Positions 31,682 through 59,607 of a stretch of 64,000 bases of DNA are shown here, piece by piece. This stretch comes from a virus, in IMG/VR virus record IMGVR_UViG_3300044993_000765, positions 1 to 64,000 of that record. The stretch is one strand, 5' to 3'. Numbering within the stretch: the first letter of the stretch is position 1; the number at the start of each line of letters is the position of its first letter. A program made the translations under genes and the position numbers. The notes under the pieces were generated by a model. The model was not told the DNA's origin. It ran no database searches and saw nothing but the letters and a program-made list of their open reading frames with translations.

Positions 31682-34180
31682 TCATCCGCCGCCATCGCCG
31701 CCGCTATCGGCAGGCGGAGCCATCGTTCGCGAACCGATCCGCATCACCGGCCCACTCGGGCTGTCCAGACCTGCCGCCTCGGTTCGCGCCTGCTCCTGAG
31801 TCAGCGCCTCTTGGCGAGTCATCTGCACGTTTTGCGCAATCGCCGATGACTGCTCGATCGACTGCGAGAGCGCATGTTCCAGATTGATCGGAATTCTGCG
31901 GTGCGCCGGACTGTCGAGATCTCCCTGTACGATGAACAGGGTCTCAGGGCGTCCCGTCTGCGGATCGATGCGGCTGCTCGGCACGACATGATCGATGCCG
32001 GAGAAGTTCCATCCCTTGGCGGACAACGCCTCGGCGACAACGGAGGCGCCCAATGTCGCGCGCTCGTGCTGCGTCAGCCCCATACCGGGCGCGGTCTCGA
32101 TCCTCGACAATGCAGTCTGTGCCTGGAGGTAAAGCAGGTGCGCGGCGTGCCCGGGTTCGTTCAGCAGCGAAGGTTGCGGCGGGGTCCGGGTGTCTTCGCC
32201 GTGCAGCGCCTCCGACTCAGTCTCCGTCGGCTTTTTCCCGGGCGACGCCAGCGAAGGGTATTTCGCCATCAGCGCGGACTCGTATGCCTCCACCTTCGCT
32301 TCCACACTCGGTACCACCGTATCGTTGAGGTGCCGCTGGAACGACTCCATGCCGCTTCCGATGCCTTCCCTTACCACATAAGCCGTTTTGGGGGCCGCAC
32401 CAGGTAGGGCATGCGCTGCGACGGCATTCTCCTTGAGCGCATAGCCCGCAACCGCAGCCGCGCCTGCTACCGGCGCATACTCGCTTACCTGCGCCAGCCT
32501 GTCACTGGCGATCTCCAGTACTTCACTCAGCGACTTGCCCGCGTAGATCGTGGCATCACCCTGCAGTCGTGCACCCTTCACCGCCACCGTGTCCAGCACA
32601 TCGGCCACGGCGTCCGCGTTCTGCCGTATCGCTGCGGCGTCCTGGTTGGCGTCGCGCAGTGCCTGACCGGCTTCGGCCCGATTGCGCTGTCGCGCCTCGG
32701 TGCCGTCACGCTGCAGATCGTCCGCACGGCGGTCCGCCCAACGCTGTAGGCCGTCCGGCAGAAGGTCGATATCGCCGATGTTGCGCAGGACGCCGGCCCC
32801 GGCTGCCGCACTGCGCGCCCTCACTTCGCCCTGAAGCAGATCGATAGACGCCTCGATCGTGCCGGCGATTTCGCGGACATCCGACGAAGCCTCGCCGCTG
32901 GTGCGCACACCGGCCGCGGTCGCGCGCCCCAGGGCACGGCCTGCCTGCGCCTGAAGCTCACCCGCGAGGTTCGCGGCTGCGCGCACGCCATCGCTCTGCG
33001 CATTCAACGACGATGCATACAGCTTGCCGCCGACTTCGGCCCACTCACCGACTTCATTGCCCACACGCGCCGCCGCTGCCTCACGATGCGCGAGGTCCAG
33101 CAACGGACCAGCGAAGCTGGACACACCGGAGAAACTCGGCACGTCCGGACGCGGCACCAGCGCGCTATTGGGGTCGTCGGGGTCGCTGCGCTGCATCGGT
33201 CGCATCGGGACCACGCGCCCCGACGCCAGCGGCATGTCGCGCAGCAAGGTTTCGGTGTCGCCAGTCGCCAACTGGTCCACGAACGCACCGAACGAGACGC
33301 GCGCATGCGGCGGCATCATGTGTTCGACCCGCGCCTTCAGCTCGTCGCGCACCTCGTCGGGCACGTTCTGCAGGATGGTCGCACTGTGCCGCATCACCTC
33401 GGCCAGTTGCCGGTTGTGGAACGCATCCAGGCGATCGACGTTGTAGACCACGCCATCGCTGAGCACCTCGCCCTGGACTTGGTAGGCAAGAATGTGCGCA
33501 TTCGGATCGTAGAGTCGCGCACCTGGATTGCGGTCGACAAAATCGCGGGCGGTATCGGGATGCAGCGGCGCCGCATTGAACGTCACGGCACGTTCGCCGC
33601 TGACCGATACGGCCGCCGAGGCCAGGCCCCCTCCGAGAGAGTGGCCGGTGTAATCGACACGCACTCCAAACTGCCTGAAATCTCTCGCCAGCTCCATTGC
33701 GCGATCGTAGTAGTCGGTACGCGAGCCTATCGTCTGCGGCCCGTTGATGCCTGCGAAGTCTTCGAGCGTCGTGTCGCGCGTGGTGCCGTCCGCGAGTTCG
33801 ATCGGCCCGGAAGACCCTTTGAAGGCCACCGTGGGCTTGAAGCCCGGCCCAAGAATCTCCAGATCGGGCAGGTAGATCTCGGCGCGGAAACCTGATCGCT
33901 CTGGCTTCAGATACTTCGTGATCGCATCATTGTCAAGATGCGAAAAAGCAGTAACTTGCTGGCGCAAAAGATCAAGATTTTCACTGCCGCGTATCCATCC
34001 CGCCGGTGGCTGACCTTCGCCTGCTGCAGAAAGGTAGACGTCCTGGCCCAGGTAGGACATTTCAGCGTCGTAGTGCAACGATTGTAGCTTCTGCAGATCG
34101 GCCAGTGCCTCTGGTGTCCCAATGGATTGCAGCCGTTCACGGAGGACGCGACGGTGTTCCAGCTCTGTGGGGGACGTCAT
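31682..34180 (-). CDS. X-Tfe: lipase effector with C-terminal XVIPCD
   Basis: 832 residues. A class 3 lipase domain occupies about residues 100-290, with the nucleophile elbow GHSLGGG (Ser near 180). Alpha-helical segments follow, with a hydrophobic stretch (YAPVAGAAAVAGYALKENAV). The XVIPCD occupies about 670-800: EPGHAAHLLYLQAQ, LTQHERATLGA, IDHVVPSSRID, LFIVQGDLDSPAHRRIPI, ALSQSIEQSSAIAQ. XVIPCD binds VirD4 and marks Xanthomonadales T4SS effectors that kill rival bacteria. The lipase would attack membrane phospholipids of the target. The tail after the domain is Gly-rich (SGGDGGG). Its start overlaps the stop of the lipoprotein gene (ATGA), the usual immunity-then-effector order. The position inside a prophage is unusual. 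Confidence 0.88.
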   Translation of the reverse strand: MTSPTELEHRRVLRERLQSIGTPEALADLQKLQSLHYDAEMSYLGQDVYLSAAGEGQPPAGWIRGSENLDLLRQQVTAFSHLDNDAITKYLKPERSGFRAEIYLPDLEILGPGFKPTVAFKGSSGPIELADGTTRDTTLEDFAGINGPQTIGSRTDYYDRAMELARDFRQFGVRVDYTGHSLGGGLASAAVSVSGERAVTFNAAPLHPDTARDFVDRNPGARLYDPNAHILAYQVQGEVLSDGVVYNVDRLDAFHNRQLAEVMRHSATILQNVPDEVRDELKARVEHMMPPHARVSFGAFVDQLATGDTETLLRDMPLASGRVVPMRPMQRSDPDDPNSALVPRPDVPSFSGVSSFAGPLLDLAHREAAAARVGNEVGEWAEVGGKLYASSLNAQSDGVRAAANLAGELQAQAGRALGRATAAGVRTSGEASSDVREIAGTIEASIDLLQGEVRARSAAAGAGVLRNIGDIDLLPDGLQRWADRRADDLQRDGTEARQRNRAEAGQALRDANQDAAAIRQNADAVADVLDTVAVKGARLQGDATIYAGKSLSEVLEIASDRLAQVSEYAPVAGAAAVAGYALKENAVAAHALPGAAPKTAYVVREGIGSGMESFQRHLNDTVVPSVEAKVEAYESALMAKYPSLASPGKKPTETESEALHGEDTRTPPQPSLLNEPGHAAHLLYLQAQTALSRIETAPGMGLTQHERATLGASVVAEALSAKGWNFSGIDHVVPSSRIDPQTGRPETLFIVQGDLDSPAHRRIPINLEHALSQSIEQSSAIAQNVQMTRQEALTQEQARTEAAGLDSPSGPVMRIGSRTMAPPADSGGDGGG

Positions 34181-35064
34181 GGGTTCCCCTCATCGAGTTC
34201 TGGCAACAGGACTTTCGACTCGTCTGTTTCAAATCCGAATGCCTCCCGATCCCGCCGGTAGTGGTCCGGCAACGGGGGGCGCTTGAATCCCTTGTTCAGC
34301 ACCCACTGCTGGCACTTGATCTGCCATTCCCGTCCTTCTCCCGGATCCATGGGTTTCCAGAAAATGGACTCCATTATCAGCGATCGGTGGCTCTGGCCCG
34401 GCGGCAAAAAATTTCTAGGATTTGGGTCTGCTCCCTTTTGCAGCAGCCAGTAAGCTTTCTTGAACGCACCACGGCTAGAATAATTATGAAGAATTGTCCC
34501 GATGCCAGTGATGGCGTTGACATCAGCCCCACGCTCAACCAGTAGCTGCACGTTCTGCCACTGGTCCTGCCAGATAAAGGCTTGAAAGAGCAGCGTCTCA
34601 TTGTTGACATTCCGTGTATTCGGATCGCCGCCGTGATCGAGCAGATGACGCAGATAGATGGGGTCTTCCTGCTTCGCTGCCCATACCAGAGCATTGTCAT
34701 TGTTCCGCGCGGGACGATCTGGCGACACGGGATAAGGCAACGCCGCATTCGGATCTGCGTCGTTCTCCAGCATCGCCTTCAACCCCTCCGGATTTTTGGT
34801 GAAGATCGGCCACGCCAGCAGCGGCATGCCTTCGGGCGAGAAATGCTTGTCCGGATCGACGCCCTCCTCCTTCATCAGCCGACGCACCTCGGCGGCATCG
34901 CCAAATTCCGCGGCGACCGCCAATGCCTGGGCGCCCTTGTCCGGGTACCACGTCTCCAGGCTGCGGGTGTGCGCCGATTTGGCGGCAGGAGGCAGCGGCT
35001 CCAGCAGGCAGCCGCTGATTGTCATTTGCACCAGCAATAGGACAACAACCAGCAGAGCCTTCAC
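34177..35064 (-). CDS. Ankyrin-repeat lipoprotein, presumed immunity to the lipase effector
   Basis: 295 residues from GTG at 35064, with AAGGA 8 bases upstream. This start gives a textbook lipoprotein signal (KALLVVVLLLVQMTISGC, lipobox Cys at residue 19), whereas the ATG at 35100 adds a charged leader without a good ribosome site. The mature part has at least four ankyrin repeats (AALAVAAEFGDAAEVRRLMKE type; DNALVWAAKQEDPIYLRHLL; ADVNAITGIGTILHNY; GADPNPRNF). Periplasmic ankyrin lipoproteins serve as immunity partners of several lipase effectors. Coupled translation with the effector supports that role here. It is AT-richer than the phage genes. Confidence 0.8.
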   Translation of the reverse strand: MKALLVVVLLLVQMTISGCLLEPLPPAAKSAHTRSLETWYPDKGAQALAVAAEFGDAAEVRRLMKEEGVDPDKHFSPEGMPLLAWPIFTKNPEGLKAMLENDADPNAALPYPVSPDRPARNNDNALVWAAKQEDPIYLRHLLDHGGDPNTRNVNNETLLFQAFIWQDQWQNVQLLVERGADVNAITGIGTILHNYSSRGAFKKAYWLLQKGADPNPRNFLPPGQSHRSLIMESIFWKPMDPGEGREWQIKCQQWVLNKGFKRPPLPDHYRRDREAFGFETDESKVLLPELDEGNP

Positions 35065-35210
35065 ATGCAGTTCCTTTTTGAGTAGAGGAGGCGGTTTCAT
35101 TGACGGTATCGCCCTTTTCTCATCGATACGATCCGTTTCGAGATACCCATTCCCTGTTTCAAGGCGGCATTCGGATACACATTACTGCCATAGACGGTCC
35201 TCGATTTCGT

Positions 35211-35750
35211 TCACGGGCTCCCGAAAACAACATTCGGTATATCTTCGCGCATCGCCCCTTGCCTGCCGCGCTGAATGTACATGATTTCCTGCCAGATTTC
35301 CTCGCCCATCGATCTGCTGAATGCGACACCGAGACGATAGCTCTCCTGCATTTGCTTCGGTGAATTTTCGACCAGCTTGCGGCCCAACGGAGACGAAAAG
35401 AATGCAATCAGTCCTCTGATGTCATCGCGGCTATAGTGCCGGTCGTAAAGCGCGGCCATGATCTCCATCAACTCCGGAAGTCTTCTCTCCATGACACGCT
35501 CAGAAACGGCCCTGTAATCCCGTGAGAGGGGTTTTGCAGACGCGCCGGCGTCGTCGCCCCCTTCTCCAGCGCGCATGGATTTCTCCGTTTCCTCGAACAT
35601 CATTTGATACATCCGCCTGAAGCTCTCCTCCTCATTCGTAAGTTTCATCAGCCTCACAATATCCGCATGTTTTTCGCCGGCAGCGTCCTGCGCAGACGCG
35701 ACCGGCATCACGCATATGAGTAGCAGCGCAGTCAGCCATCCCGCCAGCAT
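35211..35750 (-). CDS. Secreted DUF2059-family protein
   Basis: 179 residues from the ATG at 35750 (AGGAG 10 bases upstream), giving a signal peptide LAGWLTALLLICVMPVASA cut before QD. The mature protein is helical with the DUF2059 core LYDRHYSRDDIRGLIAFFSS, then PLGRKLVENSPKQMQES. DUF2059 proteins are periplasmic and of unknown role. It precedes the immunity lipoprotein by about 150 bases in the same direction and may be part of the same cargo; a role in protection is only a guess. Confidence 0.7.
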   Translation of the reverse strand: MLAGWLTALLLICVMPVASAQDAAGEKHADIVRLMKLTNEEESFRRMYQMMFEETEKSMRAGEGGDDAGASAKPLSRDYRAVSERVMERRLPELMEIMAALYDRHYSRDDIRGLIAFFSSPLGRKLVENSPKQMQESYRLGVAFSRSMGEEIWQEIMYIQRGRQGAMREDIPNVVFGSP

Positions 35751-36005
35751 GTATTTGATTCTCCTGTGACTTGTAACGTCGCGGCCTTGCGTCCCGCCCA
35801 TGTCTTCCCCCATTAAGGTTTCTGCTTGGTTTGCAATACCAAATGATTCATGATCGCGTGCTTGATCGGTACCGCTTGTTCAGCACAGCACCCACAGCGC
35901 CGCCGCCAGAGCGCATTTGCCCGACCATTCCAGTATCTGCGGCCATTTTTTTCGCCACGACCACCACCACTTATCCGGTCGCATACAGATTGTCTGTCGC
36001 CGCAT

Positions 36006-36452
36006 TCATGCCGCTGCGCGGGGAGAGGCCGACAGGTTCACATGCCGCATCCATTCGCCCATCGTGATCTGCGGGGGGCATTTCCCTGCCGCGATCTGCT
36101 TCTTCAGACGGATTTCTTCGCGATCTACCGCTATCGATCGAGGCGCGACTACCCCGATGCGCACCTGCCTGTTGCGCAGTGCCGAAAAACCTAGATATGT
36201 CGGCTTGAACGAGACGCTGACATCTGCGTCTCCCACCTCAAAGCGATCCTGGCTTAGCAGGGTGAGGAGATAGAAAGAGGTCCCGTCGCCCAGAGCCGCG
36301 CCTCGCATTTTCACGCCGTTGACGATCAGCGGTACCGAAGGGGGCGCGAGCACACCCAGCATGACGTGGTAGCACAGCTTGTCGTAGACGGTGAGACAGA
36401 TACTGTCTCCGATGTATATCGTCTCGCCCACCCTGCGCGTGAGGATTAGCAT
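36006..36452 (-). CDS. Tandem CsrA-like RNA-binding protein (cassette 1)
   Basis: 148 residues containing two CsrA-like halves in one chain. Half 1, residues ~1-45: MLILTRRVGETIYIGD...HVMLGVLAPPSVPLIV. Half 2, residues ~68-130: FYLLTLLSQDRFEVGD...RQVRIGVVAPRSIAVDREEI. Classical CsrA is a ~60-residue homodimer that binds GGA motifs near ribosome sites, with each site made by beta-1 of one subunit and beta-5 of the other. Here half 1 keeps the beta-1 RR but has lost the beta-5 Arg, while half 2 keeps VDREEI but has lost RR. One composite site should therefore remain. The start at 36452 overlaps the previous stop by 7 bases; the upstream in-frame ATG at 36482 would add residues foreign to CsrA. 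Confidence 0.8.
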   Translation of the reverse strand: MLILTRRVGETIYIGDSICLTVYDKLCYHVMLGVLAPPSVPLIVNGVKMRGAALGDGTSFYLLTLLSQDRFEVGDADVSVSFKPTYLGFSALRNRQVRIGVVAPRSIAVDREEIRLKKQIAAGKCPPQITMGEWMRHVNLSASPRAAA

Positions 36453-36856
36453 CGCGTGCTCTCCTGCCGTGGCATTGCCCACTGTTGTGCCATATCTGAC
36501 GGATCGGCATCGCCCGTGTGCTCGTAACTGACACGAATTGCTGCGGGCGTCGCAATCCCGACATGAACACAGTCCACGCAGTCTGCAGCCAGCGATACGA
36601 CATCGCCAGGCAGCCAGATCGCGATGAGGATGTCGTCGATACGAAAACGGCGGACACGTCGAAGCGAGAAGTAGTAAGCCTGTCTGTCATTCGACATCGA
36701 TAGAGGACTGATCGTCGCACCATCGAAAAGCAGTTCCGACCCAACGGGCGCGAATACGCTGACCGCGATCCGATCCTTTTCCCGTCCGCTGACCGCGACC
36801 TGCACGTCATTGCCGACATGGACCACCCCTCCCAATTTGCAGGTCATCACCAACAT
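36446..36856 (-). CDS. Diverged tandem CsrA-like protein (cassette 1)
   Basis: 136 residues from the ATG at 36856 (GGGAG 9 bases upstream). Half 1: MLVMTCKLGGVVHVGNDVQV then IAVSVFAPVGSELLF. Half 2: YYFSLRRVRRFRIDDILIAI...VHVGIATPAAIRV. The CsrA layout of beta strands and the (I/V)GxxAP turn is still visible in both halves, but the key RNA contacts are changed (TCK in place of TRR, SYEH in place of HREE). It closely parallels the first gene of cassette 2 (shared MTC, FSL, WLPGDVV, VHxGIA). It may bind other RNA or act as a partner or antagonist of the conserved one. First gene of the leftward unit, divergent from the repressor. Confidence 0.7.
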   Translation of the reverse strand: MLVMTCKLGGVVHVGNDVQVAVSGREKDRIAVSVFAPVGSELLFDGATISPLSMSNDRQAYYFSLRRVRRFRIDDILIAIWLPGDVVSLAADCVDCVHVGIATPAAIRVSYEHTGDADPSDMAQQWAMPRQESTRC

Positions 36857-36921
36857 GCGTCCAAGCTCCCTGTTCAGTGAGCGCGACATGGCAGGGCCAC
36901 CCCGCCCGTCATAACTCAGGG

Positions 36922-37023: not shown

Positions 37024-37674
37024 ATGGATTCCTTCGCCCAGGCTCTTTCCGACGCCATCGACGACTCCGGCATGCGTGGTGACTTCATCGCCAAGCAGGT
37101 CGGCACGACTGCGAACCGCCTTTCGCAGTGGAAGAACGGTCGTCGACCAGTGCCGGCGCACTACGCGCCCACGCTCGCCGCCGTGCTCGAAGTGCCGCCG
37201 GAAAGGATCAGCAGCGCATATGCAAAAGTGATCGAAGCTGGGCTTTCGATTGATTCTGCAAATCGATCAACACCGATACCGAGCGGCAACGTCCGTATCC
37301 CGAGGCTCGCCGATTTCGGTCGACCCGAAGCTATGGACGACTGCTATCTCCTTGAAGTCATTGCGCGTCGGAAGCTGGGGACCACACCTGTCGATGACTG
37401 CCGCTGGGCTCTGCAGCCCAATGCGGCCATGTCGCCGCTGATCGAGCGGGACTGCGTGCTGCTCATCGATACGCGCGTCACCCGCCATGCCGACATCATG
37501 GACGGGGCGGTGTATGCATTCACCCTCTGGGGACGATCTGATGTCCGCCGGATCTTCGTCAGGCGAGATCAGTTGCTGCTGGCTGCCCATAGCTCTGAAG
37601 TCGAGCGCATCGAAGTCCATGGCGATGATTTGGCTGATCTCCATCTGCATGGCATGGTTGTGGGCTGGCTTTGA
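37024..37674 (+). CDS. CI-like repressor with HTH and degenerate S24 domain (cassette 1)
   Basis: 216 residues. Helix-turn-helix near residues 8-50: ALSDAIDDSGMRGDFIAKQVG, then TTANRLSQWKNGRRPVP. The C-terminal ~110 residues have the LexA/CI S24 fold (LQPNAAMSPLIERDCVLLID, DIMDGAVYAFTLWG, HLHGMVVGWL). At the catalytic Ser position (GDSM in LexA) it reads NAAM, and the catalytic Lys is Arg (DVRRIFV). RecA-driven self-cleavage should thus be impossible. It is a dimerising repressor, probably of the divergent CsrA-like genes. No clear ribosome site precedes the ATG. The paralogue in cassette 2 is recognisably similar throughout. Confidence 0.85.
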   Translation: MDSFAQALSDAIDDSGMRGDFIAKQVGTTANRLSQWKNGRRPVPAHYAPTLAAVLEVPPERISSAYAKVIEAGLSIDSANRSTPIPSGNVRIPRLADFGRPEAMDDCYLLEVIARRKLGTTPVDDCRWALQPNAAMSPLIERDCVLLIDTRVTRHADIMDGAVYAFTLWGRSDVRRIFVRRDQLLLAAHSSEVERIEVHGDDLADLHLHGMVVGWL

Positions 37675-37777: not shown

Positions 37778-39334
37778 ATGGAAGGCAACAGATGGATCAT
37801 GTTCGGCAGAGGCCTGTCAGCGTCGGCGGGCTACTGCGCGGCCTATTGGCTTCTGTGGCAAGCATCCTTTGACCAGTGGTTCCTCCCGGCAGGTTTGCGG
37901 GCGACGGTCTTTCTGCTCGCCCCCTTGCGATATTGGCCCTATCTGCTGGTCGGCGACGCTGCCGCTCTACTCATCATCCGAGCCCCCATGGCCAGTGATT
38001 ATGGAGCGACTTGGGCTTACCTCAGCCCGTTCTTGCTCGCGCCCTGGGTCACTTCCGCCGTATTGTCGCTAAGAAGGCTTCTGCCTACCCTAGAACGGCA
38101 GGTATCGTGGCTCCCTGCCGCGGGCATTGCCTTGGCCATCTGGGGGACGCTCGGGAACGTCGCCATCAACGCCGTCCTGTCCGGCCCGTCTTCCTTCGAT
38201 ACTTTCGACAAGGCTTCGAACTTTGCGGTCGGGAATTACCTCGGGATTCTGCTCCTCGCGCTCCCGGGTTACTTCTTCACGATGGGCAAGCACCGGAAGT
38301 TGAAAGGCAGCATCTTCATTCGCGACACCGGAATCGGAGTTCTGCTGGTCGTCGGAATCTACGCAGCGATCTCTCTTTACGACTTCAGCATGACATCAAG
38401 GCAAGTCCTGATGATGTTGATGTTTCTGCCGGCGGCAGGCTTGACGCTTCTGCACGGATGGAGAGGGGCGGCAGCCGGCGTGTTCATGGTCAACCTCGCG
38501 ATCGCGCAGACCATGACCTATACAGGAGAAGAAGCCACCCGAGACCTTGATGTCTTTGTCGTCCAGTGCGCATTGACCATCGCCGCGATCGTCCTTCTGG
38601 CGATTGGAACGAAGATTTCTTTACTCTACAACCGCGCGAGGCAGCTTGGCATTTCCGAAAAGCGCGCCCTGGAAATGACTCGCTCCAGCCTTTTCATCGG
38701 CGAAAACAACCTGCGTGAACAGGTGCTCTTCATGGCGCAGATGCATGTCTACATGCACGAGCAACGGACACAACTGGTCGAACTATACAGGGCGCAGGGC
38801 AAATTCACGGAAGCGATGCTACTGAACAGCGCAACCGTAGAACACATGCAATCTTTCGAGAGTCGCGCCGCTGCGATTTACCCATTGAAGATCGAAGAAG
38901 TCGGACTCTATCGCGTCATTTTTCCGGATGCCTTCACCGATTTCTGGGCGGGAGATGCAGAGGTCATCTACTCTAACGCAGTCGGCATGCCGCGCACTCT
39001 TTCTGTCGACCTGCAACTGACCGCTTATCGCTGTATCTGCAATGCCTTTACGGTGCTCGCCCAAAGCGCACCGAAGCAATACGTCGTCAAACTGCGCACA
39101 TGGAAACGGCGCGGACATCGCGGTATCGTGTTCAAGGTCATCGCAAACTACGCAGGCTCGCCTCAGATCACACGATCCGGTGCGATGGCCGAGATCGATC
39201 TCGAACGGAGAGTCAAGGCGTATGGAGGCGCCATGGCGCGCAAGCAGCTTCACTGCGTCCATGTGATGCTATGGGAGCCGACGACTGACGAATCGGCTCC
39301 CACAGCAGACGAGGTCCTGCCGTCAGAAAGATGA
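37778..39334 (+). CDS. MASE1-like membrane sensor with degenerate kinase C-terminus (cassette 1)
   Basis: 518 residues. About eight transmembrane helices in the first ~300 with MASE1 features: WFLPAGLRATVFLLAPLRYWPYLLVGD, GNYLGILLLALPGYF, FMVNLAIAQTMTYTGEE. A linker helix (RARQLGISEKRALEMTRSSL) leads to a part shaped like HisKA_3/HATPase kinases. The N-box is reduced to LQLTAYRCICNAF and the ATP-lid glycines (DxGxG) are missing, so it probably does not phosphorylate. MASE1 modules sense mostly unknown ligands at the inner membrane. It follows the repressor by about 100 bases and meets the secreted-protein gene tail to tail with 12 bases overlap. I infer that it transmits a host signal to the repressor or CsrA-like proteins. 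Confidence 0.75.
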   Translation: MEGNRWIMFGRGLSASAGYCAAYWLLWQASFDQWFLPAGLRATVFLLAPLRYWPYLLVGDAAALLIIRAPMASDYGATWAYLSPFLLAPWVTSAVLSLRRLLPTLERQVSWLPAAGIALAIWGTLGNVAINAVLSGPSSFDTFDKASNFAVGNYLGILLLALPGYFFTMGKHRKLKGSIFIRDTGIGVLLVVGIYAAISLYDFSMTSRQVLMMLMFLPAAGLTLLHGWRGAAAGVFMVNLAIAQTMTYTGEEATRDLDVFVVQCALTIAAIVLLAIGTKISLLYNRARQLGISEKRALEMTRSSLFIGENNLREQVLFMAQMHVYMHEQRTQLVELYRAQGKFTEAMLLNSATVEHMQSFESRAAAIYPLKIEEVGLYRVIFPDAFTDFWAGDAEVIYSNAVGMPRTLSVDLQLTAYRCICNAFTVLAQSAPKQYVVKLRTWKRRGHRGIVFKVIANYAGSPQITRSGAMAEIDLERRVKAYGGAMARKQLHCVHVMLWEPTTDESAPTADEVLPSER

Positions 39335-39772
39335 CGGTGTGCGCACCTGCCAGCGTTGGGTCGCGCCATCCTGGTACAGGATCACTTCCACGTCTTCCGA
39401 GCGGAACAGGACCTTGGGCACGCCAGCCGGCTGTGTTTCCGCCTGGATGGTCACGCGATCGACATCGCTCCCGATTGGCATGGTCCAGAACGTGTCGCCG
39501 ATACGGCCCACGGCCGCTCGGACATTGCCGTATTGGTCATTGATCTGGGTATAGCGAATGCCGTCCCTCTGGAATTCGTAGACCTGCCACGCGGCATCCG
39601 CTGCGAGATCCGGCGCAACCGGGAACTCCTGGCCGAGACCGGATTGGGCAGCCGGAGCCCCGGCCCCATCGCTGGGACACCCGCACTTTGCATGGACCAC
39701 CGGGGTCGCGAGAACAGCCATCAGGCCGATGAGCGTGAGACCGCGCGTTCTTGAAGCAACCTTGAAAATCAT
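39323..39772 (-). CDS. Secreted small protein with CxC motif (cassette 1)
   Basis: 149 residues with a clear signal peptide (LTLIGLMAVLATPVVHA) and mature start KCGCPSDG. The rest is beta-rich: WQVYEFQRDGIRYTQINDQYG, VGRIGDTFWTMPIGSD, VEVILYQDGATQRWQVR. The ribosome site AAGGAG is strong. A paralogue in cassette 2 shares the CGCP start and the YEFQRDGxRYxQIND core. No named family is recognised. Periplasmic location next to a membrane sensor suggests a sensing partner or a superinfection factor; both are inference. Confidence 0.75.
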   Translation of the reverse strand: MIFKVASRTRGLTLIGLMAVLATPVVHAKCGCPSDGAGAPAAQSGLGQEFPVAPDLAADAAWQVYEFQRDGIRYTQINDQYGNVRAAVGRIGDTFWTMPIGSDVDRVTIQAETQPAGVPKVLFRSEDVEVILYQDGATQRWQVRTPSSF

Positions 39773-51430: not shown

Positions 51431-51949
51431 CTACTTCGGTTCGGCCGCGTCTCCCTGCTCGTAAAGCGACACCAAACCCTGCTCGCCGACGGCGTGCGTG
51501 CTGCACGGGAAATAGACCAGTTCGTCGATCACGTTCAACCACGCGCCGTTGAATCGCTCGATCAGGTTGCGCTGCCAAGCATGCGGCATCGCCCAGATGT
51601 GTTTGCAGCGGGCCACGGCAACGTCATAGCTCGCATGCGGCTCGAAGTACACCAGGTACAGCGGCGTCACCTGTTCTGGTCCATAGCGGCGCTTCTGCAT
51701 GCGATTGATCCAGTTCATCTCTTCATAGGCCCACACCAGACTGCTCGACACCGCCTTGCTTGCGACGTTGACGTAGTACGGCCGGGCGCGCGCAAATGCC
51801 AACATGTACACGACGGCCTCCGGTTCCGGCAGAGGTCGGCCGCGCAGGCTGTCCAGCGTCCAGGTGGTCGCCTCCGGCGCTGGGACTTCGGATCGCGCGG
51901 TCTCCGCCTCCAGCGTCGCCGGGGTGAGGCTTGCGAGATCAGCCGCCAC
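51431..51949 (-). CDS. Degenerate GIY-YIG nuclease-like protein
   Basis: 172 residues from GTG at 51949, whose ribosome site (GGAGG) is supplied by the Gly codons ending the effector gene; the two genes overlap by 11 bases. Residues ~45-150 follow the GIY-YIG fold: VVYMLAFARARPYYVNVASK, YLVYFEPHASYDVAVARCKH, WQRNLIERFNGAWLNVIDEL. The catalytic tyrosines and glycine are altered (VYM for GIY, YVN for YIG) and the Arg helix is lost, while the E in LIERFN remains. Cleavage is thus doubtful. GIY-YIG genes are common in phage introns and homing elements, and this one sits beside a broken terminase gene. Confidence 0.6.
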   Translation of the reverse strand: MAADLASLTPATLEAETARSEVPAPEATTWTLDSLRGRPLPEPEAVVYMLAFARARPYYVNVASKAVSSSLVWAYEEMNWINRMQKRRYGPEQVTPLYLVYFEPHASYDVAVARCKHIWAMPHAWQRNLIERFNGAWLNVIDELVYFPCSTHAVGEQGLVSLYEQGDAAEPK

Positions 51950-54900
51950 CGCCGCCTCCACCACCTCCGCCGCCGCCACCCCCATCGCCGCCGCCATCGC
52001 CATCACCCTGTGGTCCCGATGATGGTGTCAGCGTGCGCGGGCCGATCCGCATCACCGGACCCTCGGTTTCCTGTCGCTCCTTTTTCGCCAGTTCTTCGGC
52101 CTGTATCTGCGCCAACACCTGTTCTCGCATCACCGTTGCAGCCTGCGCCATCGCTGAGGACTGCTCCAGCGAAGTGTGCAGCGCCTGCTGCGTATTGATC
52201 CCCGCACGGTGGCAGTAGTCGGTCGTCGGATCGCCCTGCACCGGAATCAGCGTGGCAGGCAAGCCGGGACCGGGCGCGCTTTGGGTGCTTACGCACAGAC
52301 TGTCGATACGGGTGGCGAACTTGTCTTCGGCCAGGAACTGCGCCACCACGCCGGCCGCTAAGCGGCTTTTCTCCTCCTGCGTCAGCAGGCCCGCCGGCAC
52401 CACGTCGCCGCGTTCGATCAGGCCCAACGCCTGCGTGTACATCGCATGCGCCGGGTGGCCGGGGTGCGTCATCAGCGTGGGCGCGGGCGACGCTTGTTCC
52501 GATGCTTGGGTGGGTTGCCGATCTTCTTCGCGTTCGTCGCGGGTCGCGGCGCGATGGGCGAGCGCCGGATCGAGTGCCGTCGCGGTTTGCGGTGCGGTTT
52601 GCGCCTCGGCGCGCGCGGTATATTCGGGTTCGCGCTCGGGTGTGTCGTCGGTGCTGCGTGCCGTCGATGCGGACAGGCCCACGGTACGCGCTGCGGCGGC
52701 GGGCTCCGGTGTGTCCTGTGCTGGCGTCGAACGGTTTGGGCCGCTTGGTTCGCCACGTTCCCGCTCGCGTTGCGCCGCAAGCGCACGATCCACCGCGTCG
52801 CGCGTGTCCTGATCGGCGATGCCAGTCGCGGGGATGCCGTGCATCGTCTGGAACTGGCGCACGGCGTGTTCGGTTTCCGGGCCGTACTGGCCGGTTTGTG
52901 GGATCTGCGTGCCGTCCGGTCCACGATAGCCTTGCCGGTCGAGGCGGTATTGCAACAGTTCGACATCATCGCTGCGGTCGCCCAGGCGTAGAACATCGGG
53001 ATCGGATGTCGTGGGCGCGGGCGTCGTCGTTTCGATCTTCGCGGCGGTGCGCTCAGACTCTGGCAACGATTCGCGTTCTGGCGCGGCGGTCACGGTGGAC
53101 GGTGGCGAGGGTTCGCGCGGTGTTTCGACTGCCGGCGACGCGGCGTGTCGATCGCTCGTCGCCGTTCGCACATCCGGTTCGGTGGTCGTCGTGTTCGGCT
53201 GCTGTGCGGATTCGCGTTCGCTCACAGGCGCGGTGGTGGGCGGGCTGCTGTCGTTCGCCTGCACACCGTTGGGCGGCGTTTGATCGCGCGCCGCGCGCTC
53301 AGCGTCGCGATGCTGTTCGATGTCCGCGCGTTCGCGCTCAATACGCGCGGCGTCATCGTCGCGTGCGTCGCGCGCCATCGTTGCGACGGCTGTCGCCGCC
53401 AGTGGAACATTCTGCGCCGTGGGCGTGTCCTGCACACGTTCGCGCTGCGGTGTGTTCTCCGGCGTTTCCTCGGTGGCGCGTGCTGCGTCGCCTGCCGGCG
53501 TCATCACGCGCGCCGATGCGCCCACGGCTGCCGCATCGACAGCTTGCTGCGCGTCTTCTTTCGACAACCCCTGTCGATTCGCCTCGCGCTGCGCCTGTTC
53601 GCGTGCGTCGCGTTCTTCGGGCGTCGCCTGCGTGATCGTGCGTTCCGGCACCGGCTGCGCATACGCGACGGCGTACTGCGTCGGCTGATCGGCGATGCCG
53701 GTCGCAGGCAAGTCGTGGGCCTGCTGAAATTTCGCGACCGCGTACACGGTGTCTTGGTCGTAGTGTCCATTTTGCGGAAGCGGCTGGCCGTCGATCCCAC
53801 GATAGCCCTGTTGATCGAGACGGTATTGCAGCAACGCGACCTGATCGTTGCGGTCGCCGGGGTACGCGGTATCGGGATCGCGCGGGCCTGCCATCATCGC
53901 TTGGATCGCGGCGGTTTGCGCGGGGTTCTGTGTCGTGGGCACATCCTGCGCGCGCTCGCGTTGTGGTGCGTTCTCCAACGCCTGTTCGGGCGTGCGGATT
54001 GCATCCTCTGCTGGCGTGGTTCCGCGCGCCGGTGCGCCGATGGTGGCCGCATGGACGGCTTGCTGCGTGTCGTCGTTCGATAGTCCTTGCCGGTTCGCTT
54101 CGCGTTGCGCCTGCTCCGCAGCGTCGCGTTGCTCCGGCGTGGCGAACGCGATGGTCTGCTCGGGTGCTGCATGCGCGGGCGATGGCGCTTGCTGTTCATG
54201 CGATTTCAGTTCGCGCAACTCGGCCGCGATGTCGTTCGGCGTCGTGGTCGCCGCTGTCTCCACGTTCTTGCCGTCAGCGCCGCCAAAACGCGTATGACGA
54301 ATCTCAATCTCGGCGATGGACTTCCCCGCCGTGTTCGGCTCAAGTTCAAGCGCATTGACGCCCGCTATCAGCCCATGCTCGGCGCGCGTGCGTTGCACGG
54401 CAGCGTAGGCCGCCTCGAATTCCTCTGGTCGAACGTCGGGATTGCGGCCCGCATCGACGTACAGGCGGCGCAATGCGGCGCGGTCGGCCTGTTCTGGCGT
54501 GGGCGGCGTCCAGTCGGGAATGCGCGCGAGTTCCTTCTCGTATCCCGGCATCGCCGAAAGCAAGCGTTCGCGCGTCAAGTCCAGTTCCAGCGCGCGCTGA
54601 GGGGGTGCCGGTTCGCCGCCGCGCATCCACGTCCCTTGCGCATCCCGTTCGTAAACACGTTCGTCGGAGGCTTGCAGTCGGTCGGTCGTCATGGCGCTGG
54701 TCACGGCCGCCGGCACCTCGCCGGCTTCGCCGTAGCCGTAGGCTTTGTGTCCCAACTGGTAGCGCATCGCGATGGCCGCCGGCCCCGCTTGAAGGTTCTC
54801 GTCTATCGTCTGGCGTGCTTGGGCATTCAACTGCGCGGTGCGCTCTGGACTGGCGTACTCCGGCTCCGCGTTCCACTCGGGGGCGCCTTCGCGATCCACG

Positions 54901-56261
54901 GTATCGGCCACTTGGCGCGACCAGCGTTCGCTTTCCACGTTGTAGGTCCAACGTCCTGTCTGCACATGCGCGGGGTCGCTCTCCGACACCGGCTGCACGA
55001 ACGGGTTGCGCGGCGTCGGCACCTTGCCCAGCGCCTGTTCGGCCGCCTCCACCCCGGCCTGATAACTCAACTGCTGCGCTTTCTCGGGGGGCGCGCGATA
55101 CCGCGCCGGTTGAAAGTCGCTGATCCCATCGTCCACTCGGTCGGCGCGCAAATCTTCGCGAATCCAGTCCTTGCCGTTGTAGCCCCACGTCACGCCCGGT
55201 TCGTCGCGATCTTTCTGCGAATAAATCTTCTCGTTTTGCCAATGCGTGACGGCGCGATCAGCGGCTTCGGCCATGAGAAACGCATCGGCCGCCACCAACA
55301 CCAGCGGACCCGTGCCCGTGGCGCCCACGGCGGCCGCCGTGAGCGTGCCGCCGCCCCAGCCCGCGACATTCCGTGCGCCGAAACGTGCCCACTGCTCGTT
55401 CGCGGCGGTCGCGTTGTCCTGCGCCCACAGTTCGCTGGTGCGTACCGTCGTTTGGTACGCATCGAGTCCCGTTGCCGCAATACCGCCCATGCGCAGGGCT
55501 TGGTTGGCGGAAAGATCGCCGACCAGAAATTCAGGCGAGATAAAACCGCGCTGGCCGCGTGGCACGCGGAACGCGCGCTCTGCCGCTTCGGCCCCTTGCT
55601 CGGTCAGCGTCAAGCGACCATTCTCCTGCGCGCTGTCCACCGCCTCCGACAAGCTCTGCAAGCCTCTCGCGGCATTGCCCTTGATGGTTTTCTTTCCGGG
55701 CTGGTCGATGGTCTCCAGGCTGGCGGTCAGATGCGATTCGGATTTCAGCACCGCCGGCCAACGCGCTTCGGGGCCGGTGAGTTTGCCGACCGCCTCGATC
55801 TCAAGCGCATGCGTGCGCTGGTATTCGGGGAGATTGCGAAAGAACGCCGCGTTCCTCGCGTTCGCGGCTTCGGGTGTCATGCCTTCCGGCGTGTTGGTCA
55901 GCAGATCGCCGTTGACCATTGCGAATTTGAGGGTGTCGCAGAGGTGGTTTACTCTTGCCGCTACCCGCTCGGCGGCGGCTCGATTTCCTGCGAGTGTGGC
56001 TTGACCATCCGGCGTTTCGGCCAGCTTTTCAAGTGCGTCTGTCAGTTTGTCAGAATACTCGCCCAGCGGTCCACCATTGTGAGGCGTGACGTCGAGTTTC
56101 AATGCTAATTGCCTGTCGGCAGGCAAGTTCAGCAGATTGCGGTCGCCATGTAAGTCAAACAGACCTCCTCGCGTGAGGTCTTGCAATAGCTTGCTTCTTT
56201 TATACGCATCTTGCTCAATGACGTGATGCCCTTGAAATACAGGCTGGTCGTGCTTAGCCAT
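51939..56261 (-). CDS. X-Tfe: AHH-type nuclease effector with two PG-binding domains and XVIPCD
   Basis: 1440 residues with GGAG upstream of the ATG. The N-terminus is an AHH/HNH-type nuclease candidate: FQGHHVIEQDAYKRS, then NLLNLPADRQ and a later His in LDVTPHNGGPLGEYSDKL. A Gly/Ala-rich hydrophobic segment (GWGGGTLTAAAVGATGTGPL) lies near 310. Two peptidoglycan-binding domains sit near residues 805-865 and 1090-1150 (YPGDRNDQVALLQYRLDQQG and LGDRSDDVELLQYRLDRQGY). The XVIPCD lies near 1275-1400 (THPGHPAHAMYTQALGLIER, LIPVQGDPTTDYCHRAGINT, LHTSLEQSSAMAQ), followed by a poly-Gly tail. XVIPCD marks T4SS effectors aimed at rival bacteria. Long Ala/Glu/Arg-rich linkers join the parts. Confidence 0.85.
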   Translation of the reverse strand: MAKHDQPVFQGHHVIEQDAYKRSKLLQDLTRGGLFDLHGDRNLLNLPADRQLALKLDVTPHNGGPLGEYSDKLTDALEKLAETPDGQATLAGNRAAAERVAARVNHLCDTLKFAMVNGDLLTNTPEGMTPEAANARNAAFFRNLPEYQRTHALEIEAVGKLTGPEARWPAVLKSESHLTASLETIDQPGKKTIKGNAARGLQSLSEAVDSAQENGRLTLTEQGAEAAERAFRVPRGQRGFISPEFLVGDLSANQALRMGGIAATGLDAYQTTVRTSELWAQDNATAANEQWARFGARNVAGWGGGTLTAAAVGATGTGPLVLVAADAFLMAEAADRAVTHWQNEKIYSQKDRDEPGVTWGYNGKDWIREDLRADRVDDGISDFQPARYRAPPEKAQQLSYQAGVEAAEQALGKVPTPRNPFVQPVSESDPAHVQTGRWTYNVESERWSRQVADTVDREGAPEWNAEPEYASPERTAQLNAQARQTIDENLQAGPAAIAMRYQLGHKAYGYGEAGEVPAAVTSAMTTDRLQASDERVYERDAQGTWMRGGEPAPPQRALELDLTRERLLSAMPGYEKELARIPDWTPPTPEQADRAALRRLYVDAGRNPDVRPEEFEAAYAAVQRTRAEHGLIAGVNALELEPNTAGKSIAEIEIRHTRFGGADGKNVETAATTTPNDIAAELRELKSHEQQAPSPAHAAPEQTIAFATPEQRDAAEQAQREANRQGLSNDDTQQAVHAATIGAPARGTTPAEDAIRTPEQALENAPQRERAQDVPTTQNPAQTAAIQAMMAGPRDPDTAYPGDRNDQVALLQYRLDQQGYRGIDGQPLPQNGHYDQDTVYAVAKFQQAHDLPATGIADQPTQYAVAYAQPVPERTITQATPEERDAREQAQREANRQGLSKEDAQQAVDAAAVGASARVMTPAGDAARATEETPENTPQRERVQDTPTAQNVPLAATAVATMARDARDDDAARIERERADIEQHRDAERAARDQTPPNGVQANDSSPPTTAPVSERESAQQPNTTTTEPDVRTATSDRHAASPAVETPREPSPPSTVTAAPERESLPESERTAAKIETTTPAPTTSDPDVLRLGDRSDDVELLQYRLDRQGYRGPDGTQIPQTGQYGPETEHAVRQFQTMHGIPATGIADQDTRDAVDRALAAQRERERGEPSGPNRSTPAQDTPEPAAAARTVGLSASTARSTDDTPEREPEYTARAEAQTAPQTATALDPALAHRAATRDEREEDRQPTQASEQASPAPTLMTHPGHPAHAMYTQALGLIERGDVVPAGLLTQEEKSRLAAGVVAQFLAEDKFATRIDSLCVSTQSAPGPGLPATLIPVQGDPTTDYCHRAGINTQQALHTSLEQSSAMAQAATVMREQVLAQIQAEELAKKERQETEGPVMRIGPRTLTPSSGPQGDGDGGGDGGGGGGGGGGGGGG

Positions 56262-56303
56262 GATGAAATTCTCCGATGAATAAGCAAAGGGCTATCGCAG
56301 CAA

Positions 56304-56957: not shown

Positions 56958-57472
56958 CGTGTCCTCACTGCTCATCAATGTGTCGGTGGTCATGCAGGTC
57001 AATCGTATCGATATTTACGTGAAGGCGTCAGCATCAGCAACATGCACGCGACGCTGGCACGGCTTCGCCATTGCGCATCCACGGCCCTTGCGTATCACGT
57101 TCGTAGTCGCGGTGGTCGGATGCGCGCAGTCGGTTGGTCGTGATGGCGGATCGCCTTTACGGCGCACGGCAACTGCTGGCGGATCGTGCAGCCGGTCGTT
57201 TCGATTCGGTCGCAGCCGCTGGTGCGGGGCGATGTCGTTGTTCTCCGTCATGGAGCATTCCTGTCCTGAGTCGTCCAAATTATGACAGCGGGTCCAGCCG
57301 GTGGCACACGGCCGGATTGGCGGGCGCGGTCGTCACAGCAGGTACAGCAACAGGGCGACCAGCCATTTGCAGACCCCGATCACAAGATCGTAGCGCCGCA
57401 TTCTGCGTTGGTCTGCGCAATGCGCACCGTGCCTGCGCCGGGGGCGGCCAGGTGCCGACGTTGCGCGCGCAA
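56958..57472. other. Non-coding stretch with X-Tfe remnant and palindrome
   Basis: Besides the effector remnant at 57034-57160 I see no gene. A 12-base palindrome TTGCGCGCGCAA at 57460-57471 lies one base past the stop of the last CsrA-like gene of cassette 2 and could end that unit. Confidence 0.5.
57034..57160 (-). pseudogene. Remnant of an X-Tfe-like effector gene
   Basis: In one minus-strand frame this reads SAITTNRLRASDHRDYERDT, then QGPWMRNGEAVP and a stop. The intact effector has SAMTTDRLQASDERVYERDA, then QGTWMRGGEPAP at the equivalent place (about 54600-54700). The frame is closed by a stop on each side within about 40 codons. It is therefore a decayed fragment of a second, related effector, left beside the live copy. 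Confidence 0.65.
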
Positions 57473-57895
57473 TCAGGCCGCGTCCTCGATCACATACCCA
57501 TGCGTATCCGCGATGCGACGTGAGTTCGCGTGGGGATCGGTACGTGCGATTTCCTCGCGTCGGATCACCAATCCAGACGGTGCGATCACTGCAATGCGGA
57601 TCTGTCGCTGCCCGCCGCGCACCTTGCGCTTTGCGCTGGTCGCTTCTCCGACAACGATCACCGCATCGCCGAGTTGCAAGGACTCGCCCGTGAGCAACCA
57701 GAGCAGGTAGAACGCGCTGCCGTTGGAAGTCGTCACCGGCCGCAGCGCGTCGCCTTCATCGGCGACCAGGACATCCAGTGGCGCGGCGACGGCGACAAGC
57801 ACGCACGACCCGCGACGATCGCGCACGGTCAACCTCACGTCGTCACCGATGCGCAGGCTTTCGCCCGTCCTTCGATTCAGTACCAACCGGCCCAT
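57473..57895 (-). CDS. Tandem CsrA-like RNA-binding protein (cassette 2, third)
   Basis: 140 residues, AAGGGATGAC just before the ATG. Half 1: RLVLNRRTGESLRIGDDVRL then VLVAVAAPLDVLVAD. Half 2: FYLLWLLTGESLQLGDAVIV then RQIRIAVIAPSGLVIRREEI. As in its cassette 1 counterpart, half 1 holds the beta-1 RR and half 2 the beta-5 RREEI, so one composite RNA site is predicted. One base separates it from the previous gene. It is last of three leftward CsrA-like genes. Confidence 0.8.
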   Translation of the reverse strand: MGRLVLNRRTGESLRIGDDVRLTVRDRRGSCVLVAVAAPLDVLVADEGDALRPVTTSNGSAFYLLWLLTGESLQLGDAVIVVGEATSAKRKVRGGQRQIRIAVIAPSGLVIRREEIARTDPHANSRRIADTHGYVIEDAA

Positions 57896-57896
57896 G

Positions 57897-58268
57897 TCAT
57901 CCCTTCCTTTGGTAGCGCGACAGGCGCGCGCCCTGGGTACGCGCGATTTGCATCGCTTCAGGTGCCTCTATCTCGAACTGCGCATCGCGCATCGCACGCG
58001 CGGTGCCTGCGTGTTCTCGCGCATCGCTGATGCGTACGCGCACCGGGCCAATCTCGAACGCATCACCGTCGAACAGGGCGAGGACGTGCGCGCGCCAACC
58101 GAATCCGCACGGCGCACTGGCGCGGAAGCCGTCCACGTCGCCCAGTGCGTTGTCCTGATGGGCCTCGATGTAGACGTACCAGGTGCCATCGACCCACCCG
58201 GTCAGATTCAAGCGGATGTGGTCGCCAAAACTGACGATTTCGCCGATGGCGACGTGCAGCACGCGCAT
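57897..58268 (-). CDS. Diverged tandem CsrA-like protein (cassette 2, second)
   Basis: 123 residues, start overlapping the previous stop (TGATG). Half 1: MRVLHVAIGEIVSFGDHIRL then WYVYIEAHQDNALGD. Half 2: AHVLALFDGDAFEIGPVRVR then AQFEIEAPEAMQIAR. Spacing of strands and the I(x)AP turn place it in the same tandem-CsrA group, but both RNA-contact motifs are lost, and it has no counterpart in cassette 1. It may be a structural or regulatory partner of the others. Confidence 0.6.
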   Translation of the reverse strand: MRVLHVAIGEIVSFGDHIRLNLTGWVDGTWYVYIEAHQDNALGDVDGFRASAPCGFGWRAHVLALFDGDAFEIGPVRVRISDAREHAGTARAMRDAQFEIEAPEAMQIARTQGARLSRYQRKG

Positions 58269-58714
58269 CAGCGATGCCCCGAGAAAGTACCGGCCTCGCC
58301 CAGCGTCCCGCCCAAGGGGGCGCGCGGCAACGCGGAGGAGGCCGGCAGGGAAACCGGGGCGAACCTGTCCCGGAGCGATGAGCCGATAACCCGATCCGCC
58401 ACGGCGGACGCGATGCCAAGGTGAACCGCGTCATCGCAGCCGCGTGCATGTGGCACCACGTCGCCGGGCAACCAGACCTGCAAGGCCAGATGCCCCAGTC
58501 GGAAGCGGCGCACGGCCAGCAGTGAGAAGACATAGCCCCAGGTGCCGTCCGCGCGGCGTAGCGGCTCCAGGCGCGCGCCGTCCAGCCACAGGCAGATGCC
58601 GGCTGCCGCGCTCACAGACAGCGCCACACGGGGACCGATGCGAGCCTGGACGACGATCCGGCTTCCTTCACCAACCCGGACGGGTTGGCCAACACGGCAC
58701 GTCATCACCTCCAC
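58268..58714 (-). CDS. Diverged tandem CsrA-like protein (cassette 2, first)
   Basis: 148 residues from GTG at 58714, preceded by AGGAGGTG at ideal spacing. Start VEVMTCRVGQPVRVGEGSRI parallels MLVMTCKLGG of the cassette 1 gene; half 2 has YVFSLLAVRRFRLGHLALQV, WLPGDVVPHARGCDDAVHLG and IASAVADRV. The last ~40 residues are an extra Ser/Pro-rich tail. The CsrA fold is recognisable but key RNA contacts are changed. First gene of the leftward unit. Confidence 0.65.
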   Translation of the reverse strand: MEVMTCRVGQPVRVGEGSRIVVQARIGPRVALSVSAAAGICLWLDGARLEPLRRADGTWGYVFSLLAVRRFRLGHLALQVWLPGDVVPHARGCDDAVHLGIASAVADRVIGSSLRDRFAPVSLPASSALPRAPLGGTLGEAGTFSGHR

Positions 58715-58847: not shown

Positions 58848-59504
58848 ATGAACAAGTATTCCCAAGCCTTCCACGACGCCATGAAACGCACCGGCCTGCG
58901 TAACGTCGTGATCGCCGCGCACGTCGGGAAAGTCGGCAACAACTGTGTTGCGCAGTGGCGTTCGGGGCGTCGCCCCATCCCCGCCGAACACGCGCCCAAG
59001 GTCGCCGGCCTCCTCGGCATCCTTCCCGAGCAGATCAGCGAGTCCTACGATCGACTGGTGAAGGCGGGTGCTCTGCTGCCGGATGCGGTGCCCGGCCGAA
59101 ATGCGCCGCCGTACGGCCATATCGTGCTGTCGGAACTGGAGGATTTCAGCCGAGAAGCCGAACAGCCGCGCATCTGGCTCCCGGAGTCGATCACCAAGCG
59201 CAAGCTGGGCCTGACGCGGCCCGCCGACGTGCGCTGGGCGCTGCAACCGTCGCTGTCGATGGCCCCGGACATCGAGCGGCAGGCGCTGGTGCTGATCGAC
59301 ATCACCGCGCAGCGGCACGAGGACGTGGTGGACGGTGGCCTGTACGCCTACGCGCTATGGGGCAGGCCGGACATCCGGCGCATCCTGGTCCGCCGCGATG
59401 CCTGGACGCTGGTGGGGACCAACCCGGAAGTGGAACGGGTGACGGTGACTGAGGAAGAATTGCCGGAGCTTCGCGTGTTCGGCAGCGTGATCGGCTGGAT
59501 TTGA
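58848..59504 (+). CDS. CI-like repressor with HTH and degenerate S24 domain (cassette 2)
   Basis: 218 residues. HTH near 8-50: AFHDAMKRTGLRNVVIAAHV, then NCVAQWRSGRRPIP. The S24-like part has LQPSLSMAPDIERQALVLID, DVVDGGLYAYALWG and RVFGSVIGWI. Ser is present at the catalytic position (SLSM), but the Lys is Arg (DIRRILV), so self-cleavage is again unlikely. The pair of repressors is similar over the full length, with the same GRRPxP after the HTH. The recognition helix differs, suggesting separate operators. No ribosome site is evident before the ATG. Confidence 0.85.
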   Translation: MNKYSQAFHDAMKRTGLRNVVIAAHVGKVGNNCVAQWRSGRRPIPAEHAPKVAGLLGILPEQISESYDRLVKAGALLPDAVPGRNAPPYGHIVLSELEDFSREAEQPRIWLPESITKRKLGLTRPADVRWALQPSLSMAPDIERQALVLIDITAQRHEDVVDGGLYAYALWGRPDIRRILVRRDAWTLVGTNPEVERVTVTEEELPELRVFGSVIGWI

Positions 59505-59607
59505 CGGGCGGGATCGGGCCTAGAATGGCATGACGCCAGCGCGGCGATCGGCACACCCTGTCGGATCAGACAGGGGCGGCGACAACACAGGGAACAGGGA
59601 GCGGAAT

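Follow-up and report, generated by a model that had tools for sequence, protein, structure and literature searches.

A predicted single-chain, one-site CsrA variant encoded with site-less paralogues in mobile cassettes

Introduction

Proteins of the CsrA/RsmA family (PF02599), such as E. coli CsrA and P. fluorescens RsmE, are homodimers whose RNA sites are each formed by strands beta1 and beta5 of opposing monomers, with L4 and R44 critical for binding (PMC7652899). CsrA has been described as a two-site regulator, and for full repression of well-studied targets bridging is regarded as important. Full repression of glgC requires both sites of the CsrA dimer (PMC7652899), and the need for bridging was shown with R44A heterodimers, laboratory mutants that have one competent site per unit (Mercante et al. 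2009, reviewed in PMC7652899). Here we describe a gene, A1 (36006..36452, minus strand), in a 64,000-nucleotide stretch of viral DNA (positions 1 to 64,000 of IMG/VR record IMGVR_UViG_3300044993_000765, hereafter the window). Its product shares with CsrA/RsmA proteins the sequence family, the strand order and L4, R6, R7, R31, V42 and R44 for one site, but it is one chain of two halves with residues for one site only. Like the R44A heterodimers, A1 and its homologues (collectively A) would have one competent site per unit, but they are natural proteins.

Two further described systems are close to A. Re-CsrA joins residues 1–44 of CsrA through a 10-aa linker to full-length CsrA (Ye et al. 2018; PMC5864733). 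In the crystal it forms a CsrA-like barrel in which one ligand patch, made of beta1' of the first part and beta4/beta5/alpha1 of the second, is intact, and it still binds RNA (PMC5864733). Re-CsrA was man-made for crystallisation, whereas the A family is conserved in nature. CsrA proteins of plasmids and phages, RsmQ and gp49 of BcepIL02 among them, lie on mobile elements, as A does (PMC9928087, PMC7366521); unlike A, they are single-domain proteins (64 aa for BcepIL02 gp49) without linked paralogues of the kinds we call B and C below. No natural single-chain or one-site CsrA was found in the open-access literature, a scope outside which many subscription papers lie.

Results

A1 and A2 are CsrA pseudo-dimers with residues for one composite site

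A1 encodes 148 aa from an ATG start; an alternative GTG start at 36482 would make the protein 10 aa longer. A homologue that is 39% identical, A2 (140 aa; 57473..57895, minus strand), is encoded in a second cassette of the window (cassette 2). Pfam family PF02599 matches both proteins in two stretches, with 62.8 bits for A1 and 46.7 bits for A2 (cut-off 27), in agreement with the initial annotation of A1 as a protein of two CsrA-like halves. The NCBIfam equivalog cut-offs for CsrA are not reached by the A proteins (60.4 versus 73; 52.6 versus 70.1), and each contains two CsrA halves rather than the single domain of about 60–75 aa of a homodimeric CsrA.

In what follows, residues are numbered by E. 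coli CsrA positions unless a position in the A1 chain is meant. Half 1 of A1 retains L4, T5, R6 and R7 and has V at position 44, while half 2 has chain residues L65/L66 at positions 6/7 and R111-E112-E113 at R44-E45-E46. The pattern reported earlier, in which half 1 keeps LTRR without the beta-5 Arg and half 2 keeps REE without RR, is thus confirmed residue by residue. In CsrA, R6/R7, R31 and R44 form one composite site; A1 therefore has the residues for exactly one complete RNA site, in which R6/R7 of half 1 would be combined with chain residues R98/R111 (R31/R44) of half 2. A2 is partitioned in the same way (LNRR, then FYLLWLL, then IRREEI). When A1 was compared with PDB sequences by phmmer, residues 1–23 and 92–117 jointly matched one ordinary CsrA, with the middle of the protein behaving like an insertion. 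It is well supported by sequence and by analogy that A1 consists of two CsrA halves in one chain, with residues for exactly one composite RNA site.

One site is conserved and its reciprocal is lost across the A family

An alignment of A1 and A2 was used to scan viral and genome contigs for homologues, and Xanthomonadaceae genomes were searched with a profile. Together these searches gave 22 distinct A proteins, of which 13 serve as representatives with less than 80% identity; pairwise identity was 27–99% (median 40%). The combination of half-1 R6 with half-2 R44 is present in 22/22 proteins and the reciprocal combination, half-2 R6 with half-1 R44, in 0/22. Thus no homologue has both sites intact and there is no random loss, as expected from the earlier proposal that exactly one site remains. 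Within half 1, R6 is found in 22/22, R7 in 18/22 and L4 in 19/22 proteins, and R31 in none of the 22. Within half 2, R44, E45 and E46 are each found in 22/22, and position 31 is R or K in all 22; R6/R7 are retained in 0/22, being replaced by Leu, Val or Met (His at position 7 in two). The A protein of locus L101 has an apparent Arg at half-1 position 44, but its half-2 position 6 is Leu and site 2 is therefore still incomplete.

Mean column entropy over the nine contact columns was 0.51 for site 1 and 1.76 for site 2, compared to 1.26 for all columns; random column sets were as low in entropy with P=0.0009 for site 1 and P=0.98 for site 2. Pairwise ratios of nonsynonymous to synonymous substitution rates (dN/dS), which are rough estimates, were 0.10–0.18 for several close A pairs, 0.06–0.37 for close B pairs and about 0.2 for C. 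As judged from these close pairs, A, B and C are under purifying selection. The retention of site 1 and the entropy contrast also bear out the idea that the asymmetry is maintained by selection.

The initial annotation had held that the cassette 2 protein shows the same pattern independently. The pattern itself is there, but its independent origin in A1 and A2 was rejected, since the two proteins are homologues and the ancestral losses are common to A, B and C; the one-site pattern was inherited. On the evidence of the alignments, decay of the reciprocal site is one ancestral event that has been retained by selection.

Fold prediction places both halves of A1 in CsrA register

AlphaFold2, given aligned A and B proteins, folded A1 with a mean predicted local distance difference test (pLDDT) of 85.3 and a predicted template modelling score (pTM) of 0.79. 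Strands were predicted at residues 2–7, 11–14, 18–26, 29–36 and 42–44 in half 1 and at 59–66, 70–73, 76–81, 96–102 and 109–111 in half 2, the latter corresponding to CsrA positions 0–7, 11–14, 17–22, 29–35 and 42–44. A helix (112–121) was predicted after half 2 only. Both halves are confidently predicted to be in the canonical CsrA strand register.

The AlphaFold2 secondary structure and residue counts fit the layout of Re-CsrA (PDB entry taken as 5z38, from the phmmer match against PDB sequences): a helix-less half, a linker (about 15 residues in A, 10 in Re-CsrA) and a complete half with helix. The partition fits as well, with beta1 residues in the first half, beta4/beta5 residues in the second, and one intact site. 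The two differ at the second site, where the helix is missing and beta5' disordered in Re-CsrA, and R6 and R44 are replaced in A. Together, the model and the engineered precedent suggest a three-dimensional composite site in an intertwined barrel.

Two phage proteins in BFVD, A0A6J5RUQ1 ('Carbon storage regulator', 114 aa) and A0A6G5YEX0 (88 aa), matched the folds of A1 and C2 (a paralogue described below) with a probability of 1.00 and spanned both halves, but are only 24–25% identical to A1. Since these matches span both A1 halves, other single-chain CsrA-like phage proteins may exist. A0A1J0MD66 is also among the short phage proteins (88–114 aa) that matched the A1 fold over both halves with a probability of 1.00.

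Paralogues B and C lack a complete site

The stop codon of a paralogous gene, B1 (36446..36889, minus strand; B profile 198 bits), overlaps the A1 start. B1 is a CsrA pseudo-dimer, its CsrA-like part beginning at 36856, in which the site is gone, with Cys in place of R6 and Tyr in place of R44. Cassette 2 encodes B2 (58268..58714, minus strand; GTG start, VEVMTC; B profile 189 bits) and a third paralogue, C2 (57897..58268, minus strand; C profile 177 bits), in which half-2 R44 is kept and R6/R7 are lost. None of them reaches the PF02599 cut-off (B1 22 bits, C2 13.9 bits, B2 no match). Profile searches run iteratively unite B and C with A. The AlphaFold2 model of C2 (pLDDT 85.8, pTM 0.78) has the same strand order as A1.

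Half-1 position 6 is Cys in 20/20 B proteins, in which half-2 R44 is mostly lost, and in 8/10 C proteins, of which 9/10 keep half-2 R44. A complete composite site was found in no B or C protein; judged by these residues, only A among the products of the operon B-(C)-A is likely to be RNA-competent. In a midpoint-rooted tree of A, B and C, which is rough and leaves long-branch rows in unsure places, B (support 100/100) and C (98/94) each formed a group across genomes, and A was the remainder, with one long-branch row unplaced. Because B and C form supported groups across genomes, the three types are old. All three have Leu, Val or Met at half-2 position 6, and half-1 R44 is absent almost throughout; these common losses indicate that the one-site state predates the triplication.

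The pseudo-dimers belong to cassettes with a regulator, a membrane protein and variable cargo

In most loci the gene order is a small protein with a signal-peptide-like start, a MASE1 protein and a helix-turn-helix (HTH)/S24-like regulator, facing the operon B-(C)-A; C is present in many cassettes, cassette 2 among them. In the cassette of A1 (cassette 1), the divergent HTH regulator (37024..37674, plus strand) matches PHROG 4 repressor with E=4.7e-10, and its S24-like C-terminal part is just under the Pfam S24 cut-off (E=2e-4). The MASE1 membrane protein (37778..39334, plus strand; PF05231, 82 bits) is weakly UhpB-like in its C-terminal part (NCBIfam UhpB, E=0.0011, far below cut-off). Both genes are conserved in the cassettes. 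Convergent with the MASE1 gene is that of the small protein (39323..39772, minus strand), which has homologues in the same place in most cassettes. The cassette 2 counterparts are the homologous and likewise cassette-conserved HTH/S24-like regulator (58848..59504, plus strand) and MASE1 protein (59530..61155, plus strand) and an end protein whose matched part (61210..61578, minus strand) is 64% identical to the 39323..39772 protein (tblastn E=4e-54).

Directly after the A1 stop codon lies a candidate small peptide of at most 41 aa with a single transmembrane-like segment, D1 (35880..36005, minus strand), found in a hydrophobicity scan of open reading frames. Such D-type peptides (about 22–41 codons) begin at or next to the A stop in many cassettes, mainly toxin-linked ones, most of which have such a peptide, and were also seen after A in L009–L013, L037, L038, L109, L110, L113, L114, L118 and L120. 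The 22-aa hydrophobic peptide after A2, D2 (57333..57401, minus strand), is the weakest example.

The cargo of cassette 1 is a putative effector of the Xanthomonadales-like type IV secretion system (X-T4SS) with a C-terminal XVIPCD domain (31682..34180, minus strand; PF20410, 56.2 bits). An ankyrin-repeat putative lipoprotein beside it (34177..35100, minus strand; PF12796, 63.7 bits) is a candidate immunity protein, and a DUF2059 protein (35211..35813, minus strand; PF09832, 51 bits) is encoded between the effector and A1. Cassette 2 carries a large putative X-T4SS effector (51939..56261, minus strand) with XVIPCD at 52143–52466 (PF20410, 49.1 bits). Two putative X-T4SS effector genes with possible immunity partners (DUF2059, ankyrin) occupy 31682–35813 and 51939–57002 of a phage genome. 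XVIPCD cargo was found in both window cassettes, L012 and L118; XVIPCD was absent from RHS-type cargo and, by Pfam, from L037. Also encoded downstream of cassettes are Tle1-like lipase-domain proteins (L009, L011, L012, L013) or RHS proteins (L109–L111, L113, L114, L116, L118, L120).

Some loci depart from this plan. In phage contig L011 a LuxR/NarL-type response regulator (4399–5085) lies upstream of B and replaces the usual HTH/S24-like gene. L112, L115 and L121 have HTH, MASE1 and B genes without A, beside housekeeping-looking genes, which in L112 resemble putative sulfate-assimilation genes.

The cassettes occur in phages and in bacterial chromosomes

Full-length relatives of A were found by the contig scans in phage contigs L009–L013 and in Lysobacteraceae metagenome-assembled genomes L036–L038; A1 alone retrieved one identical copy only from the viral contigs. 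The tandem protein is encoded by 10/297 sampled genomes (~3%) of the Xanthomonadaceae, the family to which one of these metagenome-assembled genomes belongs, at up to five loci per genome, some of them B-type only. A phage-only gene was accordingly rejected. In the order sample (299 genomes) and the class sample (369 genomes) the tandem protein was seen in the reference genome only. Among GenBank phages there was no close A1 relative, the matches being single-domain phage CsrA proteins covering at most 57% of A1 length, and no match to B1.

The window is part of a 75,953-base record with TerL, portal and major head protein genes. It encodes a 4759-aa giant phage protein, and its general plan resembles that of Lessievirus BcepIL02, in which a single-domain 64-aa CsrA-like gene lies between the portal and head genes. 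In phage contigs L009 and L010 the cassette immediately adjoins the end of the giant gene. In the tree, no chromosomal A protein is closer to A1 than that of locus L109, and a piece of the C-terminal end of the giant protein lies at L109:8427–8786, between the A gene and an RHS gene. The window shows the same order (giant, RHS). Given this fragment and the shared order, the simplest interpretation is that the cassette has been exchanged between phages and chromosomes.

In the window itself, an RHS-repeat-type protein (1–5241) adjoins the giant protein (5358–19637), and close homologues of this RHS protein were found downstream of chromosomal cassettes.

Discussion

The explanation that we regard as probable, taken as a whole, is that A is a natural single-chain, monovalent CsrA that acts as a local post-transcriptional switch within a B-(C)-A module. 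Half 1 (beta1–beta5, no helix), the linker and half 2 (beta1–beta5 plus helix) would fold into one CsrA-like intertwined barrel, and the site made of half-1 beta1 (L4, R6, R7) and half-2 beta4/beta5 (R31, V42, H43, R44) would bind one GGA motif of the ANGGA type that CsrA recognises. Because the reciprocal site was lost in the family ancestor, A would be monovalent and would not bridge two sites on one mRNA; from what is known of CsrA, it would bind its motif without tether-and-bridge action. It would then bind cassette mRNAs at single GGA sites, and possibly host CsrA targets too, in neither case with the tethering that host CsrA uses. The position of the genes suggests a role of A in the control of linked toxins, perhaps also of host CsrA targets, with B and C as possible modulators of A.

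Several observations weigh against this explanation or parts of it. GGA motifs upstream of the genes after A are not enriched, nor are they consistently in predicted hairpins, so that a target in cassette mRNA finds no support in the sequence. L036, L117 and other cassettes have no toxin cargo and lie beside housekeeping-looking genes. R7 is absent in 4/22 A proteins and position 4 is F in three, which means that affinity may vary within the family. Finally, when A1 was compared with single PDB chains by Foldseek, no CsrA match was significant, a chain of a swapped dimer being a poor template. As this search was uninformative, the barrel geometry of A1 rests on strand register and precedent.

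A might instead act as an antagonist of host CsrA, occupying GGA sites of host targets such as the X-T4SS virB leader, blocking bridging and so relieving or mimicking repression throughout the genome. Host CsrA of X. citri is a repressor of the X-T4SS that acts via the virB7 5' untranslated region (PMC7286519), so a monovalent competitor could plausibly modulate this system. The site-1 residues of A equal those of canonical CsrA, and the three genomes searched at a permissive threshold encode a separate canonical CsrA besides the tandem proteins. There are 16–24 XVIPCD matches per cassette genome, compared to any match in 8/20 sampled cassette-free relatives, although these genomes are related and not independent. 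However, the cassettes of a genome (at most five) are diverged and often have their own cargo each, which fits local control better than global control, and we consider a genome-wide antagonist somewhat unlikely. It is more improbable that the conserved surface of A binds a protein, such as a CesT- or FliW-like partner and possibly a cassette protein, and not RNA. CesT does use the same beta1'/beta4/beta5/helix patch of CsrA (R31, V42, H43, R44), for which one site suffices (PMC5864733), and B and C, encoded in the same operon, are possible partners. Yet R6, on the RNA-binding face of beta1, is kept in 22/22 proteins, whereas the beta1' contacts of CesT are I3, L4 and T5 (PMC5864733). Moreover, Pfam gave no CesT or FliW match in A1, B1, A2, C2, B2, the HTH regulator or the MASE1 protein, and no CesT- or FliW-like gene was present among the scanned cassette proteins.

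The residue pattern demands only that a half 1 pairs with a half 2, which could occur between molecules: two A chains might swap halves to give a bivalent dimer with two working sites, and native CsrA is itself a swapped dimer. Such a swap seems at least as improbable as protein binding, and slightly more so, since AlphaFold2 folds a single A1 chain and Re-CsrA, despite its shorter linker (10 aa), was described as two ~12.5-kDa molecules per CesT dimer, that is, as single-chain units (PMC5864733). The least credible of the alternatives is ordinary, functionally meaningless decay of a redundant CsrA duplicate. The reciprocal site is indeed lost in A, and B and C have lost the site altogether, but one complete site persists in every A protein over the whole range of pairwise identity, the entropies of the two sites contrast, and dN/dS is well below 1 for A, B and C; random decay of A was rejected on these grounds. 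We therefore retain the monovalent local switch as the preferred explanation.

A wider version of this explanation is tentative, and we would not call it probable. The cassette would be a hitherto undescribed, self-contained post-transcriptional switch in which monovalent A, together with RNA-dead B and C as anti-regulators or sensors, operates under the MASE1 and HTH proteins, gates linked antibacterial toxins and moves between Lessievirus-like phages and Lysobacteraceae chromosomes. Its elements go beyond the initial annotation, to which the present analysis adds the site-less paralogues B and C, the HTH and MASE1 genes, the small membrane peptide, the toxin and effector neighbours and the host-chromosome copies.

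On sequence and precedent, A is best regarded as a new CsrA variant, a single-chain protein of natural origin with residues for one site, encoded together with two site-less paralogues in mobile cassettes that are often linked to antibacterial toxins. Such a family would be a natural experiment on the capabilities of a single site. If this holds true, the bridging question could be tested with wild-type proteins, and a monovalent CsrA tool would be ready to hand. The occurrence of three pseudo-dimer paralogues in one operon, in phages and chromosomes alike and often next to X-T4SS and RHS toxin genes, also suggests a layer of Csr-type control devoted to interbacterial weapons, which would fall in a bacterial family where host CsrA, as in X. 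citri, restrains the X-T4SS.
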